Source: Solibacteraceae bacterium (GTDB lineage: Bacteria; Acidobacteriota; Terriglobia; Bryobacterales; Bryobacteraceae). From it: DNA of 64,000 nucleotides. Where the stretch lies: assembly GCA_021324015.1 (NCBI GenBank), contig JAJPJX010000157.1:1-64000 (forward strand), in the 5' to 3' direction. Shown piece by piece: positions 4,635-64,000 of the stretch (the stretch's first letter is position 1; the number at the start of each line of letters is the position of its first letter). The notes under the pieces are model-generated. The model ran no database searches. It saw only the letters and a list, made by a program, of their open reading frames with translations, and was not told the origin of the DNA. Made by a program: the position numbers and the translations under genes.

Positions 4635-4755
4635 AAGCGCTGGCTCTCCCCAGGCCTGGAGAATCCAGCCCGAGTGTAACAGATGCCGTGCTGGCCTGTC
4701 ACGCCGCGCGGTATGCTAAGACCTGCGAGAAAGCCCAGGCCGCGCGCCCCACACT

Positions 4756-6021
4756 ATGCTGCAGAACCTGTATCACTGGCTGCCACCCGAGGGCGTCAAG
4801 ATTCTGCTGGTGCTGTTTCTTTCCTTTCTGGTGGGCCTGGAGCGAGAGGAGCGGAAGGGGGCCGGCGACCAATATCTTTTCGGTGGCGTGCGCACGTTTC
4901 CGCTCATCGGGCTGATCGGCTACAGCATGGCGCTGCTGTTCGGATCGGAATGGCTGCCGCTGACGGTGGGCTTCGCGGTGGTGGGCGGGTTCCTGATGCT
5001 TTCCTACCGGCACAAGCTGCAGGCGTACGGCACGGCGGGCGTCACCTCGGAAATGTCCGGCCTGACGACCTTCCTGGTGGGCGCGCTGGTATACCGCGAG
5101 CAGTTCTGGATCGCCACAACGCTGAGCGTGGCCAGCATGCTGCTGCTAGAGCTGAAGGGGGCGCTCGAAAAGCTCACCCGGCGGATCGAGCCGGACGAGG
5201 TGCTGACCTTCAGCAAGTTCCTGCTGCTGACCGCGGTGGTGCTGCCGGTGCTGCCCAACCAGGATTTCGGCCCCTTCCAGATCAATCCGTTCAAGACCTG
5301 GCTGGTGGTGGTGGCAGTGAGCACGATTTCCTACGGCAGCTACGTGATTCAGCGGCTGACCAAGGAGCAGGGCGGCGTGCTGCTGGCGGCCCTGCTGGGT
5401 GGGGCGTACTCCTCGACGGTGACCACGGTGGTGCTGTCCCGCCGGGCGGGCCGCGAGAACCGGCCGCACCTGTTCGCCGGGGGCACGCTGATGGCTTCCG
5501 GGGTGATGTATGTGCGGCTGGCGGCGCTGGTGGGGATGTTCAACGTGAGCCTGCTGGCGCGGCTGGGGCTGCCGCTGGCAGCGCTGGCGGTGGCGGCGAC
5601 GGCCGCGGGGTGGTTCTGGTCGCGGTTGCCGGACCCCAGCGAGCAGAAGATCGCGCGGGAATACGTCTCCCGGAACCCGCTGGAACTGGGCGCGGCCGTG
5701 CTGTTCGCGCTGTTCTTCCTGGCGATGGTGGTGGCCACGCACCTGACCGTGCAATACCTGGGCAACGGCGGCGTCTACACGCTGGCGCTGATCATGGGAG
5801 TGACCGACGTGGACCCCTTCATCATGGGAATGACGCAAACGGCCGGGACGGCCACGCCGCTGACGGTGGCGGCGGCGTCCATCGTGATCGCCGCAGCCAG
5901 CAACAACCTGGTAAAGGGAATTTACGCGCACGCGATCGCGGACCGGCAGACGGGCAGGCAGAGCCTGGCGCTGCTGGCCGCGCTGGCACTGGCCGGGCTG
6001 GCGCCGCTGTTGTGGATATGA
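4756..6021 (+). CDS. MgtC/SapB and DUF4010 family membrane protein
   Basis: A 421-residue polytopic inner-membrane protein. The N-terminal half has the MgtC/SapB signature (FLVGLEREERKG near residue 26 and GGVRTFPLIGLIG near 44) and the C-terminal half is DUF4010, with a dozen or so hydrophobic segments in total. MgtC-like proteins are linked to Mg2+ limitation and acid survival in other bacteria; the role of the DUF4010 fusion is unknown. It is a single gene, convergent with rho (32-bp gap). Start assigned at the first ATG giving the complete MgtC domain. Confidence 0.85.
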   Translation: MLQNLYHWLPPEGVKILLVLFLSFLVGLEREERKGAGDQYLFGGVRTFPLIGLIGYSMALLFGSEWLPLTVGFAVVGGFLMLSYRHKLQAYGTAGVTSEMSGLTTFLVGALVYREQFWIATTLSVASMLLLELKGALEKLTRRIEPDEVLTFSKFLLLTAVVLPVLPNQDFGPFQINPFKTWLVVVAVSTISYGSYVIQRLTKEQGGVLLAALLGGAYSSTVTTVVLSRRAGRENRPHLFAGGTLMASGVMYVRLAALVGMFNVSLLARLGLPLAALAVAATAAGWFWSRLPDPSEQKIAREYVSRNPLELGAAVLFALFFLAMVVATHLTVQYLGNGGVYTLALIMGVTDVDPFIMGMTQTAGTATPLTVAAASIVIAAASNNLVKGIYAHAIADRQTGRQSLALLAALALAGLAPLLWI

Positions 6022-53414: not shown

Positions 53415-53504
<90 letters not shown>

Positions 53505-53590
53505 CTTTCTTTTCAAGCATTTACAACAACATAGGCTTCCGGCTTGGGCAATTTTGGGTAATGCCCGTGTTAGGATCGGGGCGGTAAGAC

Positions 53591-54847
53591 ATGGCCCTGA
53601 ACCTTTACCGCAGGCACGGTTCCCATTGCGTTGGTGGCCGCGCGTTGCACGACATGACCTACGAAGCAGACGAACTGCGCCGTAGTTGGAAACGCTGCTT
53701 GTGCCCCATCTATGCGTCGGGGACGCTGGGTTTCCGGTTCAAGCGGAAGAATACCGAGTGTGCCACTTGGGATGAAGCCAAGGCGCTGGTGCGCACGTGG
53801 CAGGACGCTGCTTCGTGGGAAGGCCCGGTCACCGCGCCACCGGCCCCTGAACCCCCGGCCCCGAATCCTGATGCTGGACGCGTCACGATTGCCGACGCAA
53901 TCACCGCGTTCATCACCGTCCGGGAAGCGTCCAAGATCGCGCCGTCCACACTCCGCAAGTACAAGACCTTCACCAAGCAGTTGCGCGCCTACGCCGATGA
54001 CAAGGGCTATGTGATGCTGGACCAGTTCACGTCTGCGGACGTTGACGTGTTCTACTCCAACTGGAAGCTGGGAGCACGAGCCAAGGGCAAAGCGCTGGGC
54101 ACGCTGCGGAGTTTCTTCCGGTTCTGCGCCAAACGGAAATGGATAGCTGTTGACGCGACGGACCCGAAGTCCATCGGGCCGGTTTCCAGCGACCTGAAGC
54201 CCCCGCTGGGTGCCAACCGCGTAGCCAATAAGGTCCCCTTCACTGATGACGAACTTCAGCGCATCCTGGACGCCTGTGACCGGCTGGGCGCAATCGAGTG
54301 GAACAACGGCAGCAAGACGGGCGTGTGGACCGGTGAAGACGTGAAGGACTTCATCTGGCTGCTGACGTACACCGGCCTTCGCATTTCTGACGCTGGCTTG
54401 TTCCGCATGGATCGGCTGCACGGTAACGAAGTCTTCCTGCGGGCCAAGAAGAACGGTGGCGACGTGTTCACCTGGATACCGGATTGGCTGGCCACCCGGC
54501 TGACTGACCGCGCCAAGCGACACGGGCCGCGTCCGTTCATCACCGGAGAATCAGACCGGCTGGAAACAGTCACCGACCTGTGGCGCAGAAGGCTGAACAA
54601 GGTGTTTGAACTGGCTGGAAAATTCAAAGAGACACCCACGCCCCACCGGTTCCGCCATACGTTTGCGCGAATCCTCTTGCAGCGGGGCGTCCCTGTGGCC
54701 GATGTCGCGGACCTGATGGGCGATGATGAAGACACTGTGCGCGAACACTATGCCCGCTGGGTGCCAGAGAGACAGGCGCGGCTGACCAACATCCTACGGG
54801 ATGCTTTCACGGATAAGCCACGGCCAAAGCTGTTGGCGATTCGGTAA
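53591..54847 (+). CDS. int: Tyrosine recombinase/integrase
   Basis: A 418-residue integrase. The N-terminal part (HCVGGRALH and WKRCLCPIYASGTLGF) carries Cys/His residues of a zinc-finger-like arm-binding region common in acidobacterial integrases. A SAM-like core-binding domain follows (about 100-190), then the catalytic domain with Arg in TYTGLRISDAG, HRFRHTFARILLQRG (H and R), and the nucleophile Tyr in REHYARW. It presumably integrates the element at tRNA-Ser. GGGGCGG lies upstream of the ATG, and a 10-bp stem-loop follows the stop. Confidence 0.93.
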   Translation: MALNLYRRHGSHCVGGRALHDMTYEADELRRSWKRCLCPIYASGTLGFRFKRKNTECATWDEAKALVRTWQDAASWEGPVTAPPAPEPPAPNPDAGRVTIADAITAFITVREASKIAPSTLRKYKTFTKQLRAYADDKGYVMLDQFTSADVDVFYSNWKLGARAKGKALGTLRSFFRFCAKRKWIAVDATDPKSIGPVSSDLKPPLGANRVANKVPFTDDELQRILDACDRLGAIEWNNGSKTGVWTGEDVKDFIWLLTYTGLRISDAGLFRMDRLHGNEVFLRAKKNGGDVFTWIPDWLATRLTDRAKRHGPRPFITGESDRLETVTDLWRRRLNKVFELAGKFKETPTPHRFRHTFARILLQRGVPVADVADLMGDDEDTVREHYARWVPERQARLTNILRDAFTDKPRPKLLAIR

Positions 54848-54954: not shown

Positions 54955-55518
54955 TCACGCGGCCTTCGGATACAGCGCCTGTGCGATCTTGGAGAGTTCA
55001 TCGGCTTCAGCGATTCGCTGATGGTGTTCGGCAAGGAATTTGGCTGCTTCCAAGTCGGCGAAGGTGCCGTAATATTTGCCTGCCACTCTGACCTGCCATT
55101 TGGCCGCACCCCGGTGCCAATAGATTCCCGTGGTACCACTTGTATTGTTGCGAGGCATTCTGCGATTCAGAAGGTTCAACGTCCTTGTTGCCAGACGCAA
55201 GTTGGACCTGCGGTTATCTAAGGTGTCACGGTTTATATGATCCACCTGATAGCAGTCTGGCGCGTCCAAAAGGACGCGATGCAAATGGACCTTGCCCCCG
55301 CTCCGACCTGCGCTACTTATCACGCGGAAGCAGCGTGAATGTCGGCACCAGTGCCCATGCCACCGATACGGCAGCGCTTGTAACATTGGCAGGTCCATAG
55401 CGTCAACCAACGTTTCGATGGCTGGGCCGTTCTTCCGTCGTAGGAAAAGAACGGCGACTTCCCCACGGATTTCAAATAGATTCTTCATCGGAGTAGCGGT
55501 TATGCCATCAGGCCGCAT
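54955..55518 (-). CDS. HNH endonuclease with AP2-like DNA-binding domain
   Basis: A 187-residue protein of the phage HNH type. The HNH_3 core is DCYQVDHINRDTLDNRRSNLRLATRTLNL near residues 88-116; the C-terminal part GIYWHRGAAKWQVRVAGKYYGTFADLEAAKF is an AP2-type DNA-binding fold. Such genes are usually free-standing homing endonucleases. Its start at 55518 overlaps the end of the HTH gene by 11 bases; MKNLFEI at 55488 is an alternative start. Confidence 0.85.
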   Translation of the reverse strand: MRPDGITATPMKNLFEIRGEVAVLFLRRKNGPAIETLVDAMDLPMLQALPYRWHGHWCRHSRCFRVISSAGRSGGKVHLHRVLLDAPDCYQVDHINRDTLDNRRSNLRLATRTLNLLNRRMPRNNTSGTTGIYWHRGAAKWQVRVAGKYYGTFADLEAAKFLAEHHQRIAEADELSKIAQALYPKAA

Positions 55519-55717: not shown

Positions 55718-56188
55718 CGTGCCCGCAGCATAATTTCCCATTTCTCCCACCGGCCCCGATTTCATTTTGTACTTCTCGTCCTGCCAACCAGTTACCTTCA
55801 GCTTGAAGCATGTGAACGCTGGCCCGGCAAGATGGGCGCTGGGCGGGACTTTCTTCAGCAGCAACGAAGCGAGTAGCACAGCCGCGCAAGTGGCAAGGCG
55901 CAGCAGCCCTTTGAACTGTCTGTGAAGCCAGCAGCTTACATGCCGCAATGAAGTGTGTGACGGAAGCCAGCGTTTCCCCTACGGGACCCGTTCACATATT
56001 TCGTTTCGGAATGCCTCACGCGAAAGTGACACGTAAGTTCATGCAACCACCCGTTTGTCAAAACTGGCTTGCATTACCGCGCGTGATTCAAGCTGACAGG
56101 CGCTGATGGGGGCCTGTGTAGAATGGGGTTGGCGGGATTCACACCCCCGCTTCCCTCACGTGCAGTAAAAACCCAAGGCAATTTCACC
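55718..56188. promoter_or_regulatory. Divergent control region of the element
   Basis: The 471 bp between two divergent HTH genes contain no convincing gene. This is where a lysogeny-like switch would be expected. Visible features are the motif TAGAAT at 56119-56124 (possible -10), and a short hairpin GCGGG...CCCGC at about 56131-56152 just upstream of the AlpA-like start. Operators could not be defined by eye. Confidence 0.4.
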
Positions 56189-56392
56189 ATGACGCGTTTA
56201 CACGCACCAAGTGCGCAGCCTGCCTACCTGCGCCAGCGGGACGCTGCTGCGTTTCTTTCGGTCAGCGTGGCCCTGTTACAGAAATGGCACCGTCTGGGCA
56301 CAGGTCCCCGCCGTGTGCTGTTGGGTGGCCGGGTGCCGGTATATTTCATTCCCGACCTTCACAGATGGGCGCAGGAACAGGCCGCGCAATGA
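56189..56392 (+). CDS. AlpA/excisionase-like HTH protein
   Basis: A 67-residue MerR-like (HTH_17) protein: PAYLRQRDAAAFLSVSVALLQKWHRLGTGPRRVLLGGRVPVYFIPDLHRW. The helix-turn-helix plus wing and Gly-rich turn are typical of AlpA/Xis factors that direct excision or activate element genes. The frame stays open to 56123 upstream; MTRLHAP is chosen because the domain starts soon after. The next gene overlaps by ATGA. Confidence 0.8.
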   Translation: MTRLHAPSAQPAYLRQRDAAAFLSVSVALLQKWHRLGTGPRRVLLGGRVPVYFIPDLHRWAQEQAAQ

Positions 56393-58901: not shown

Positions 58902-61214
58902 ATGAATCGGGATATCGCAATTCAATACGCGCGGAACGGCTGGTCTGTCATTCCGCTGCACAGCCCGCAGGGTTCTGGCTGTTCTTGCGGTAGCGCTGAC
59001 TGCGGCAAGCCGGGCAAGCATGCGCGCGTCCGCGAATGGCAGAAGGCGTCATGTGACCCGGACACTGTTGCCGCATGGTGGCAGCAATGGCCGGATTCAA
59101 ACATCGGCCTGCGCTTGGACAATCTGGTGGTGCTGGACGTGGACGGAACGGAAGGCGCTGACTCACTGGCTGCTCTCGAACAACAGCACGGGCCGCTGGT
59201 CGCACGCGCGCAACAGCGCAGCGGTTCAGGTGGCTGGCACTACGTGTTTGAAGCCGCGGAAGGCGTCACCAAGCATCTGAAGTTCAGGCCCGGCCTTGAC
59301 CTGCTGACTGGGGCCGGGTGCTACATCGGGGTGGACCCATCGCAGCATGCCAGCGGTGGAAACTACCGGTGGGTGGATACGGAAAGCCCGGCCAACACTC
59401 CCCGGCCCCAGCTTCCGCTGACGGTTCCACCGGCTTGGCTGCTGGAAGTGGCCAAGACAAAGGCCCGGACCCCAACTGAACGCGTACCCGTCGAACGTCT
59501 CATGACCTTGGCACTCGAAAAGATCGGGGCCGGGTCAGGGCGCAACGATGCGGGCCTGTTCTTCTACGGCCAGATGCGCGACAACGGGTACACTAAGGAT
59601 GAATCGTACCTGACTCTCCGGGAGTGGGTCACCCGCGCCAATGAAGCCGCACCAGCGCTGGCCAAGTACACGCTTTCGGAAGCGCGGGCCACCTTGAACA
59701 GCGCCTATAAGCGGGAACCCCGCGACCCGTGGACCGAACCCGGCAAGCGGACCAATACCGCAAAGCTGCTGGAAGACCTGTCTGAAGACATCGAACTGTT
59801 CCACTCGCCCAAGGGTGACGCATTCGCGGTGGTCCCCGTCAATGACCACGTGGAATGCTGGGCCGTCGATTCCAAGACGTTCAAAGGCATTCTGACCAGC
59901 CGGTATTTCAAAAAGCAGAATGCCACACCGGGCAGGGACGCGCTGCAAAGTTTCGTTGACCTGCTGTGCGCACGCGCTGCTTATGACGGCCCTGAAAAGC
60001 AAACACACCTGCGATTCGCACACGTTGACGGGCGCGCGTATTTGGACCTTGGCAACGATTCTTGGCAGGTCGTTGAAATCGACGCTGATGGCTGGCGCAT
60101 CCTGCCCCAGTCCCCGGTGTGTTTCAAGCGCGTGGCCGGTATGAAGCCGCTGCCGATTCCTGAACGCGGCGGGTCACTGACCGCGCTGCGCAGATTCATC
60201 AACGCGCAGGATGACCGGCATTTCGTCTTGATGGCGTCATGGCTGGTTGGGACGTTTCTGCCGAAAGGCGCGTTTCCGGTCTTGTTGATTCAAGGTGTGC
60301 ATGGTTCCGCGAAGTCGGGGACCACGGCCATCCTGCGGAATCTGGTTGACCCGGTGACCGTGCCCCTAAGCGCGTTGCCGCGCGATGAACGGGAACTGGC
60401 CATCACAGCCAACAACAGTGGCGTCATCGCTTTTGACAACGTATCCGGTGTTCATCAATGGCTGAGCGATGCGTTCTGCCGAATCGCCACTGGCGCGGGC
60501 TTCCGCACGCGGACCTTGCACACCGACGCGGATGAACAGCTATTCGAGACGCGCAGGCCGCTGCTGCTGAACGGCATTGACGATATCGCATCCCGCGCGG
60601 ACCTGCTGGACCGTGGCATTGGAGTGTATCTCAGACGCATAGCGGACACACAGCGGAAGACGGAAGATGAGATTCAATCGGAATTCGCTTCCGCACAAGG
60701 TGCCATCTTGGGCGCGCTGCTGACCGCAGTGTCCACGGGGCTGCGGAACTTGCCCAGCACCAAGTTGTCCAGCCTTCCGCGCATGGCTGACTTCGCTAAG
60801 TGGGTTTCAGCGTGTGAACCGGCCCTGCCATGGGAACCGGGGGCCTTCATGCGGACGTATCTGGAAATGCGCCAGAAGACAGCGGAAATGTCCGTGGAAA
60901 ATGACATGGTGGCCCAGGCCCTGCTGCGCATGATTCTGACCACGCGTTCCAGCGTCTGGGAAGGCACCAGTGAAGAACTGCTGCTGGAGTTGAACCAGCG
61001 GGTGCCCTTCGATAGACGGGACTTCACAGCGTGGCCCAAGACGCCTGCGTCACTGGGCCGCTGGCTGCGCCGCGCGGAACCCTGCTTGCTCGCCGTGGGC
61101 GTCACCTTGAGCGCACGGCGTGGTGGGAAGGGCCGCACGCGGTTGCTGCGTGTCGAATACAGCAACCCGGATCAAGGGACCCTGCTTCCGTGGCCCGAAC
61201 AGGACGCGGCATAG
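58902..61214 (+). CDS. Bifunctional prim-pol and helicase-type replication protein
   Basis: A 770-residue replication protein. The N-terminus is a prim-pol domain: GWSVIPL near residue 14, a Cys/His cluster CSCGSADCGKPGKH (28-41), the catalytic DxD in VVLDVDG near 78, and GGWHYVF near 111. A primase-C-like helical region follows (about 200-270). The C-terminal half is an ATPase with a Walker A-like loop GVHGSAKSGTT (465-475) and a Walker B-like VIAFDNVSG (about 508-516). Such proteins start autonomous replication of satellites and plasmids. The iteron block begins 1 base after its stop. Confidence 0.85.
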   Translation: MNRDIAIQYARNGWSVIPLHSPQGSGCSCGSADCGKPGKHARVREWQKASCDPDTVAAWWQQWPDSNIGLRLDNLVVLDVDGTEGADSLAALEQQHGPLVARAQQRSGSGGWHYVFEAAEGVTKHLKFRPGLDLLTGAGCYIGVDPSQHASGGNYRWVDTESPANTPRPQLPLTVPPAWLLEVAKTKARTPTERVPVERLMTLALEKIGAGSGRNDAGLFFYGQMRDNGYTKDESYLTLREWVTRANEAAPALAKYTLSEARATLNSAYKREPRDPWTEPGKRTNTAKLLEDLSEDIELFHSPKGDAFAVVPVNDHVECWAVDSKTFKGILTSRYFKKQNATPGRDALQSFVDLLCARAAYDGPEKQTHLRFAHVDGRAYLDLGNDSWQVVEIDADGWRILPQSPVCFKRVAGMKPLPIPERGGSLTALRRFINAQDDRHFVLMASWLVGTFLPKGAFPVLLIQGVHGSAKSGTTAILRNLVDPVTVPLSALPRDERELAITANNSGVIAFDNVSGVHQWLSDAFCRIATGAGFRTRTLHTDADEQLFETRRPLLLNGIDDIASRADLLDRGIGVYLRRIADTQRKTEDEIQSEFASAQGAILGALLTAVSTGLRNLPSTKLSSLPRMADFAKWVSACEPALPWEPGAFMRTYLEMRQKTAEMSVENDMVAQALLRMILTTRSSVWEGTSEELLLELNQRVPFDRRDFTAWPKTPASLGRWLRRAEPCLLAVGVTLSARRGGKGRTRLLRVEYSNPDQGTLLPWPEQDAA

Positions 61215-61215
61215 G

Positions 61216-61556
61216 CGGACAGAGCGGACAGCAGCGGACAGGAACGAAAACGGGCTTGCTGTCCGCCATTTCTGCTGGAAACGCAGGGGTTAGGTGTTAG
61301 GCGGACAGAGCGGACAGCAATTTCTATGTTTTCCCTGGAAAAGAATATATATAAAGGGAAACAGTGTATAGAAACGCCACGCAGACAGGACCTTTGCGAC
61401 TTTCTAAATGCCACCGGGAAATAGCTGCAAAATGCTGTCCGCTCTGTCCGCTCTGTCCGCCAACTTTTTAACACCAACTGTGTCAAGCTGATAGGTCATG
61501 CGTCTGGCGGACAGCAGGGCGGACAGTAACTCTGCGTGCTGCCCGCTTCCTGTCCG
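61216..61556. repeat. Iteron block: putative replication origin
   Basis: Twelve copies of CGGACAG lie in 341 bp. On the plus strand they start at 61216, 61225, 61235, 61302, 61311, 61508 and 61520; in inverse orientation (CTGTCCG) they start at 61259, 61435, 61444, 61453 and 61550. Most neighbours are 9 or 10 bp apart. The two clusters flank an AT-rich stretch. The location directly behind the replication gene and the two-cluster layout match P4- and SaPI-type origins recognised by their own primase-helicase. Confidence 0.7.
61330..61361. repeat. AT-rich inverted repeat (possible unwinding element)
   Basis: TTTCCCT (61330-61336) and AGGGAAA (61355-61361) surround an AT-rich core containing AATATATATAA. 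It sits in the middle between the two iteron clusters, where a DNA-unwinding element would be expected. Confidence 0.5.
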
Positions 61557-61987
61557 CCGTGCGTGGGTCACGGACTTGACACGCTGAATCGGACGTAAGT
61601 TACTCAATCGTCGGCGCTGTCAGAAAAGTGGCGCTAAAGTGGCGTTGCCGCAAAGCTGTGCTATTAGCGCACTTAGCAGACAGGCCCCAAGGCACGCGTG
61701 GTCAGTCACACGTACTGCATTAAGGTTCCATTAAAACCAGGAGTCACCAAGCGAACGGCTGGCGATCCGCTGAACACGAAGTACTTGACAACGCCAAGGC
61801 ATGCGCTGGCGTTAGCGCGCGGCAAAGGACCTGACCGTCCAATTACCCGCCGCATAAACCGACCCGCGCGCTGCCAGCCGTGGCCGTAGAAACGCTTTTC
61901 GGGGCCGGGGGATGCTGTGGTGTCACCCGCTGCCCCTTCACGCGCTGTAGCCCGTCTGGGCCGCAGCAACACACATGAGAGTGACGT
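61557..61987. other. Gene-free stretch behind the iterons
   Basis: About 430 bp with no convincing gene; a 63-codon plus-strand frame at 61698-61889 has no recognisable features. It contains a near-direct repeat AAGTGGCGCT/AAGTGGCGTT at about 61626-61646 and could hold the promoter of the terminase-like gene or further origin sequence. Confidence 0.3.
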
Positions 61988-62483: not shown

Positions 62484-63104
62484 GTGAAAACAGAGTTTCG
62501 CCGTTCTGATTTGATCGCGCTGGCGCTGCCAGCTTGTGCGCACTGCGGTGGCAGTGGCCTGCGCAGCGCTGAAGGGGTCTGCCTGTGTGTTGAGCGTTCC
62601 GTATTCCGCATTGTGATGCAACGCTACCGTGACATCACCGAAGGGGAAGAGTTCATTGCGCCCCTGTCACTCGAAAACGCGGGCACTGGTCCCAAGGGGC
62701 TGGTGCGCGTTGGCCGTCCCCATGAAGAATTCCTTGCGGACGTGTGCCTGATAGCCAAGCGCGCGCTGGACCCGCTGGAACACTCCGTCTTCCGGTTTCA
62801 CTTCCTGCTGGGCGCTGATTGGAAGCTGTGCTGCAAGCGGCTGAAGATTGACCGGGGAACCTGCTTTCACGCCTTCTACCGCGTGGAAGCCAAGCTGGGC
62901 CGTGCATTCCGCACCACGCAGCCGTACCCGCTGTATCCGCTGGCCGGGTACTTCTATGGCGTTGTTCGCGGACGCAAGACAGCACCCTGCGTGCCCGATG
63001 ATGAACTAGCCCAGCCGGTGGCGTTGGTCCCACCGGTCATGTCGAAACAAGAACGGCTGGCGTACATCCGCGAAAGGTTGGCGGAAGGCCCGCTGGCCGC
63101 ATAG
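62484..63104 (+). CDS. Zinc-ribbon/HTH-like phage-type protein
   Basis: A 206-residue protein. CAHCGGSGLRSAEGVCLC (18-35) is a Cys4 zinc knuckle of the DnaJ-like CxxCxGxG kind. The central part HSVFRFHFLLGADWKLCCKRLKIDRGTCFHAFYRVEAKLG looks like a sigma-4/HTH-type helical domain. Related proteins are widespread in phage-like islands without known function; control of late transcription is a reasonable guess. The dif-like site starts 4 bases after its stop. Confidence 0.6.
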   Translation: MKTEFRRSDLIALALPACAHCGGSGLRSAEGVCLCVERSVFRIVMQRYRDITEGEEFIAPLSLENAGTGPKGLVRVGRPHEEFLADVCLIAKRALDPLEHSVFRFHFLLGADWKLCCKRLKIDRGTCFHAFYRVEAKLGRAFRTTQPYPLYPLAGYFYGVVRGRKTAPCVPDDELAQPVALVPPVMSKQERLAYIRERLAEGPLAA

Positions 63105-63107
63105 ACA

Positions 63108-63135
63108 ACACATGATAATTCGACTTATCATGTGT
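63108..63135. other. 28-bp dif-like recombinase core site
   Basis: Two perfect 11-bp inverted arms, ACACATGATAA (63108-63118) and TTATCATGTGT (63125-63135), are separated by 6 bp, TTCGAC. Arm length, spacer length and the ATAA/TTAT inner ends are those of XerCD sites such as dif and cer. It lies 2 bases before the ATG of a Xer-like recombinase. It could be that recombinase's crossover site, its operator, or both. Confidence 0.65.
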
Positions 63136-63137
63136 CT

Positions 63138-64000
63138 ATGGGTAAGCAAATTGTGGCTGTTTCGCTCGGCCTTCAGCAGCAAGCGGACACCGATGAACAG
63201 GCCATCAAGCTGTGGTTGCACGGCAAGGCAGCGCACAGCCAGCGGGCTTACCGGCTGGACATTGACCGGTTCCGCGCTGCCGTGCGCAGGCCGCTGCCAG
63301 CGGTCACGCTGGATGACCTGCAACAGTTCGCGGACTCGCTGGCCGGGCTTGCCCCTGCCTCACAGAAGCGCATCCTTGCGAGTGTGAAAAGCCTGCTGGC
63401 GTTCTGCTTGAAGATTGGATACTGCCAGTTCAACGTGGGGGCCGCGTTGACCGTGCGCAAGGCCAAGAACACGCTGGCTGAACGCATCCTGCCCCATGAA
63501 GACGTGGCGCGCATCATCGAACGTGAAGACGGCCCCCGCAACCACGCCATGCTGCGGTTCCTGTATGAAACCGGTTGCCGGGTGTCAGAACTTTGCAGTG
63601 CAAAGTGGCGTGACATTCAGCCGCGTGACGCAGGGCTGGCGCAGGTAACGGTGTTCGGGAAGGGGGACAAGACGCGCCACGTCCTAATCTCGAAACGGCT
63701 GTACAAGGAACTGGTGCGCCTGCACGCGGATGCCGGTGACAATGCCCCCGTGTTCCCCAGCAAGACCGGCAAGGCACTGGACCAGCCAGCCGTCTTCCGC
63801 GTCATGCAGGCCGCTGCGCAGCGGGCCGGTATCGAACAGCCCGTATCGCCCCATTGGTTCCGCCACGCGGCAGCGTCACACGCGCTGGACAACGGGTGTC
63901 CCATCGGGCTGGTGAAGGAACAACTGGGCCACGCCAGCCTTGAGACAACCAGCGTGTACGTACATGCCCGGCCCACGGATGGCTTGTTCAAGTACCTGCG
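63138..64000 (+). CDS. XerC/XerD-like tyrosine recombinase (runs off the window)
   Basis: The frame is open from ATG 63138 to the window end (287 codons), so it is nearly complete for a Xer-type protein of about 300 residues. The core-binding domain covers about 20-105. All catalytic residues are visible: Arg in YETGCRVSELCSAKW, Lys in FGKGDKTRHV, H and R in HWFRHAAASHAL, His in QLGHASLETT, and the nucleophile Tyr in TSVYVHARP. It is shorter than and unlike the tRNA-proximal integrase. The dif-like site just upstream suggests multimer or cointegrate resolution, or a second integration route. Confidence 0.88.
   Translation, partial: MGKQIVAVSLGLQQQADTDEQAIKLWLHGKAAHSQRAYRLDIDRFRAAVRRPLPAVTLDDLQQFADSLAGLAPASQKRILASVKSLLAFCLKIGYCQFNVGAALTVRKAKNTLAERILPHEDVARIIEREDGPRNHAMLRFLYETGCRVSELCSAKWRDIQPRDAGLAQVTVFGKGDKTRHVLISKRLYKELVRLHADAGDNAPVFPSKTGKALDQPAVFRVMQAAAQRAGIEQPVSPHWFRHAAASHALDNGCPIGLVKEQLGHASLETTSVYVHARPTDGLFKYL

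Follow-up and report, generated by a model that had tools for sequence, protein, structure and literature searches.

At the end of the window, the 64,000-bp stretch that we analyzed (bases 1 to 64,000 of a 70,149-bp contig), a 28-bp palindrome adjoins, or overlaps with, the start of a gene for an Xer-like tyrosine recombinase. Comparison with homologues, which retain the same geometry upstream of their genes, indicates that the palindrome is not a coincidence, and numerous unrelated phages and plasmids share such a gene-plus-site pair. The gene is the second tyrosine recombinase of an integrated and probably self-replicating 13.3-kb element, because att repeats enclose it together with a separate integrase, a primase-polymerase (Prim-Pol) gene, and a repeat cluster. 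We consider it quite likely that gene and site constitute a single-recombinase module that would resolve multimers of the element once it is excised and replicating.

The site (63108 to 63135, no strand assigned) reads ACACATGATAA-TTCGAC-TTATCATGTGT, which is exactly the perfect 11-6-11 inverted repeat originally described. It is treated as a candidate core recombination site on the basis of this geometry and of the same layout upstream of homologues. No other perfect 11-6-11 repeat occurs in the whole 70,149-bp contig, where a first-order Markov model predicts 0.05; with any spacer of 3 to 12 bp, the same model predicts 0.43 perfect repeats. Host Xer genes were found by a PF00589 search of the whole genome. 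Allowing up to three arm mismatches, the 8.2-Mb genome contains neither a further copy of the site nor a host dif of the same sequence. The originally proposed check for the same site at the right end of the element or in host dif was thus negative, and the ends of the element are instead 21-bp tRNA-Ser repeats. The recombinase frame begins immediately 3' of the TAG of the upstream gene (63102 to 63104). A spacing of 2 bp between site and start codon, as first reported, applies to the ATG at 63138; a second possible start codon, an in-frame GTG at 63132, falls within the right arm.

The recombinase gene (plus strand, from 63132 to the end of the window) is intact, as its complete appearance had suggested, although it exceeds the window by 4 nt and has its stop codon at contig positions 64002 to 64004. 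It encodes 290 aa from the GTG or 288 aa from the ATG. We identified Pfam domain PF00589, a SAM-like N-terminal domain (PF02899), and all of the catalytic residues (R150, K177/K180, H241-x-x-R244, H267, and Y276). The predicted structural model (mean pLDDT 89, pTM 0.69) has two domains and no extra N-terminal domain. Simple tyrosine recombinases consist of a core-binding and a catalytic domain (PMC8138268), and the Phage_integrase domain, the R-K-H-R-H-Y residues, and the lack of an arm-binding domain place this protein among them. Compared with the sequences of solved structures, the family profile is best matched by XerD (E 2e-43), an archaeal XerC-like enzyme, and XerA; the fold of the model matches XerA, integron integrase, XerH, lambda Int, and then Cre. 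The protein nevertheless falls below the curated NCBIfam cutoffs for XerC and XerD (157 bits versus 335 and 330) and archaeal XerA (152 versus 220 bits), and below the curated cutoff for XerS (52.6 versus 267 bits). With 290 aa, it is also too short for XerH (354 to 362 aa), to which its match is weaker than to XerD and XerA. It thus reaches no curated Xer family cutoff, though it would work like IntXO-PSL, XerS-difSL, or Cre-loxP.

The surrounding element occupies contig positions 53484 to 66772 and is integrated in a tRNA-Ser(CGA) gene (53415 to 53504, plus strand). The last 21 bases of this gene form attL (53484 to 53504), and attR is an exact copy beyond the window (contig 66752 to 66772; 4752 to 4772 of locus L002). 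Just inside these lie two 25-bp repeats, 92% identical (53544 to 53568 and 66650 to 66674), that possibly serve the integrase as arm sites. The separate tyrosine integrase (418 aa; 53591 to 54847, plus strand) was recognized by PF00589 in the whole-genome search. It is followed by an HNH endonuclease gene (54955 to 55518, minus strand), possibly a homing endonuclease, and by a possible excisionase or MerR-like regulator (56183 to 56392, plus strand) with a weak match to phrog_66 (E 1e-4). A 770-aa Prim-Pol replication protein (58902 to 61214, plus strand) matches PF09250 (E 4e-33) and phage DNA primase families. Directly 3' of its gene, GCGGACAG/CTGTCCGC repeats in both orientations cluster around an A+T-rich stretch (61212 to 61560, no strand assigned), a plausible candidate for an iteron replication origin. 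No capsid or tail genes were recognized among the scanned proteins of the element. A search for close relatives across the element returned none for the gene upstream of the recombinase and one distant Prim-Pol. The 28-bp site is internal to the element rather than at its ends.

Relatives of the recombinase, at about 40 to 55% identity, are found mostly in plasmids and phages. They include proteins of small circular plasmids from Cyanobacteria, Methylobacteriaceae, Bacillus safensis, and Desulfolutivibrio, some of which carry partition genes, and of phages phiAP1 and phiKM1 and at least 80 viral contigs. Relatives also occur on contigs of two genomes from the same phylum; a protein search of genome contigs yielded two relatives only. 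Upstream sites include CCGCAAGATAA-GTGTAG-TTATCTTGCGG in phiAP1, ACGCAAGACAA-GAATCG-TTATCTTGCGT in plasmid pCMU02, and GCGATTGATAA-GGATTA-TTATCTATCGT on a contig from the same bacterial family. In plasmid pNYY1_2 (locus L017, 2268 to 4947), two transposase genes, one of the IS5 and one of the IS110 family, stand between the site ACGCAAGACAA-GTGACA-TTATCTTGCGT and the recombinase.

To quantify the pairing, we scored the best 11-6-11 site, weighted for ATAA-N6-TTAT, upstream of each relative, with equal-length windows elsewhere in the same loci as controls. Many viral contigs are closely related to each other, so clusters at 70% identity (49 in total) were counted instead of contigs. Scores of at least 12.5 were reached by 23 of the 49 clusters versus 1.4% of control windows, and scores of at least 13.5 by 16 of the 49 versus 0.3%. 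Since the weights were set after the first sites had been seen, the argument rests on the control fractions rather than on the raw scores. Under this score, about half of the 49 clusters lack a clear 11-6-11 site. The original prediction had named loss of the palindrome from recombinase-bearing relatives as grounds for dismissing it; the outcome was favorable, in that the symmetry is conserved upstream while the 6-bp center varies. Some cyanobacterial plasmid relatives (loci L021, L024, and L025) carry ATTCAACATAA-N7-CAATGTTGAAT, an 11-7-11 near-palindrome about 20 bp before the start, with the start codon in its right arm, which suggests that site geometry varies.

The arms change together with the enzyme. 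The outer arms that precede ATAA are diverse (CCGTCAG, CCGCAAG, CCGGGAG, ACGCAAG, ATGCAAC, GTTGCAC, and ACACATG), yet left and right arms agree at 5.9 of 7 outer bases within a site versus 3.4 across recombinases. Arm similarity also tracks protein similarity (Mantel r 0.25, reached in 17 of 5,000 permutations). The center varies while the arms stay constant; for example, CCGTCAGATAA is combined with TATCTG, TCACTG, TCATTG, TCTCTG, or TTACAG. A recombination core site shows just this combination of covarying arms and a center that is free to change. No conservation of neighboring genes around the relatives was found, and the gene and its site are therefore the unit.

Phages of acetic acid bacteria have three half-sites before the core: a direct one at -32, an inverted one at -58, and another at -76 or -77. 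Their offsets are fixed and their bases change along with the core arms (loci L042, L046, L051, L065, L074, L077, L103, and others). By analogy, the layout resembles the core-plus-direct-repeat arrangement of TnpI irs sites. In the window, no extra half-site with up to three mismatches was identified from 250 bp upstream to 200 bp downstream, leaving the core only.

We propose the following sequence of events. The element would be integrated at tRNA-Ser by the other integrase and, once excised, would replicate from the Prim-Pol/iteron origin. The 28-bp palindrome would be the core crossover site of the adjoining recombinase, with its identical 11-bp arms occupied by a pair of subunits, and two sites would synapse into a tetramer. 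Cleavage at the borders of the 6-bp center would be followed by strand exchange, with the asymmetric center TTCGAC setting relative direction. Circle multimers would carry directly repeated sites, at which the recombinase could resolve them to monomers suited to stable inheritance or re-integration.

Several lines of evidence make multimer resolution the best-supported role. Phage phiAP1 has both enzymes, and its other integrase has been shown to integrate at tRNA-Ser and to drive an integrative vector (PMC8566455), so the 11-6-11 family member is not needed for integration there. Among the phage records that contain a family member, 10 of 17 encode a further tyrosine recombinase. A recombinase beside its recombination site is the usual arrangement on large plasmids, and linkage of gene and site has been described as potentially characteristic of single Xer recombinases (PMC5357621). 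A plasmid precedent is IntXO-PSL of Bacillus anthracis pXO1 (PMC5567495), in which a plasmid tyrosine recombinase and its own site function in plasmid maintenance; its site is 37 bp. As in a plasmid or phage multimer-resolution module, the gene in the window adjoins a site that conservation points to as cognate, on an element that homology points to as a replicon. Against this role, about half of the clusters show no clear site, the site in the window has no accessory motifs to steer the reaction toward resolution, and the element needs no resolution while it is integrated as a single copy. A self-contained system for resolution or integration had been predicted; a self-contained module of gene and site is supported, whereas the tRNA-Ser att repeats, the element's own integrase, and the single internal site speak against integration.

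The main rival, which we judge rather unlikely, assigns the same enzyme and site mainly to a lytic or transfer cycle, where they would circularize incoming DNA or cut concatemers in a role of the P1 Cre-lox type. The chemistry would be identical to that of multimer resolution. Many relatives do reside in phage genomes with separate integrases, but others belong to ordinary small circular plasmids that carry partition genes, and the lack of a capsid or tail gene among the scanned proteins also counts against this role for the element in the window.

The palindrome could instead be a mere operator, bound by a transcription factor or by the recombinase acting as a repressor, without strand exchange. 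Palindromes before genes are often operators, and this one overlaps the start codon and two promoter-like hexamers, TAGACA (63102 to 63107) and TATCAT (63126 to 63131), on the plus strand. They form a sigma-70-like pair (TAGACA-18-TATCAT) that spans the site. Moreover, an unrelated viral contig has a palindrome with identical arms ahead of a gene, and no recombinase adjoins it. A purely regulatory site is nonetheless very unlikely given the Xer-type ATAA-N6-TTAT geometry, the arms that track the recombinase and the freely varying center in phages and plasmids, and the accessory half-sites with covarying bases. Regulation may well accompany recombination: recombinase bound to a site that overlaps the hexamers and start codon would probably repress its own gene. 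Judged from the consensus match, autoregulation, also part of the original prediction, is plausible. The message is possibly leaderless, as would follow if the hexamers are used and the transcript starts near the ATG at 63138.

Use of the palindrome as an attachment site, with the element integrating at host dif or at another copy in the manner of an IMEX, is suggested by the dif-like geometry. We rejected this role as highly improbable. An IMEX has a dif-like site at its ends and needs no integrase of its own, but this element has its own integrase and is bounded by 21-bp tRNA-Ser repeats, and the 28-bp site lies inside it, with no second copy at up to three arm mismatches. Least probable is that the recombinase acts as a DNA invertase in phase variation, flipping a segment: a symmetric, core-only site permits inversion as well as deletion, but there is no second site in the contig or genome.

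Multimer resolution by a single recombinase has parallels in several known systems. One is phiAP1, whose second "integrase" (BCZ75824.1) is about 41% identical and has a perfect 11-6-11 site upstream of its gene. Like the element, phiAP1 has a separate integrase that acts at tRNA-Ser (PMC8566455). It differs in that its site has accessory half-sites and in being a 42.8-kb phage. XerS/difSL and XerH/difH (PMC5357621) likewise pair one recombinase with a site adjoining its own gene, but they are chromosomal, with larger enzymes (about 356 aa), and difSL is 31 bp with an 11-bp center versus 28 bp and 6 bp here. The position of a recombinase beside its own site had been singled out as noteworthy, which is imprecise, as this is usual in these two systems and in large plasmids (PMC5357621). 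Archaeal XerA/dif and XerCD/dif (PMC2958812, PMC3025954) have 28-bp 11-6-11 sites, and the protein is nearest to XerD and XerA in sequence and fold; these systems are chromosomal, and the arms in the window are fully symmetric. Cre/loxP, VCre, and SCre (PMC4957104) combine a single recombinase with symmetric arms and a site near the gene, but lox sites are 13-8-13 (PMC4957104) as opposed to 11-6-11, and Cre ranks after the other four fold matches. TnpI/irs of Tn4430 and Tn5401 (PMC7157771) has a tyrosine resolvase whose gene is preceded by core inverted repeats, with a promoter within the site, and its accessory repeats are like those of the acetic acid bacteria phages (PMC7157771). It is, in contrast, part of a Tn3-family transposon with TnpA, and the site in the window has no accessory repeats.

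With moderate confidence, we propose that these genes represent a large unnamed family of Xer-derived single recombinases that, with their own adjacent 11-6-11 sites, act as portable modules for resolution in those phages, plasmids, and integrated elements in which a separate integrase is already present. In the branch from phages of acetic acid bacteria, a TnpI-like array (at about -76, -58, and -32) would impose topological selectivity. Our literature search covered open-access papers and our sequence search the stated collections, so an earlier description of the family may have been missed. The proposal hints at what genes usually labeled "integrase" or "XerC/D" may do in phages and plasmids with an integrase already in place. 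About twenty recombinase/target pairs, which differ in their arms and have variable centers, make target specificity and orthogonality directly testable, and sites with the core only versus those with accessory repeats offer a natural comparison.

An exact search for the arms in viral contigs returned a single match (locus L108, 5446 to 5473). Both exact 11-bp arms are present there, extended to a 14-6-14 palindrome with center TTACTG just before an ATG; no recombinase adjoins it, and a distant tyrosine recombinase is encoded elsewhere in the contig.
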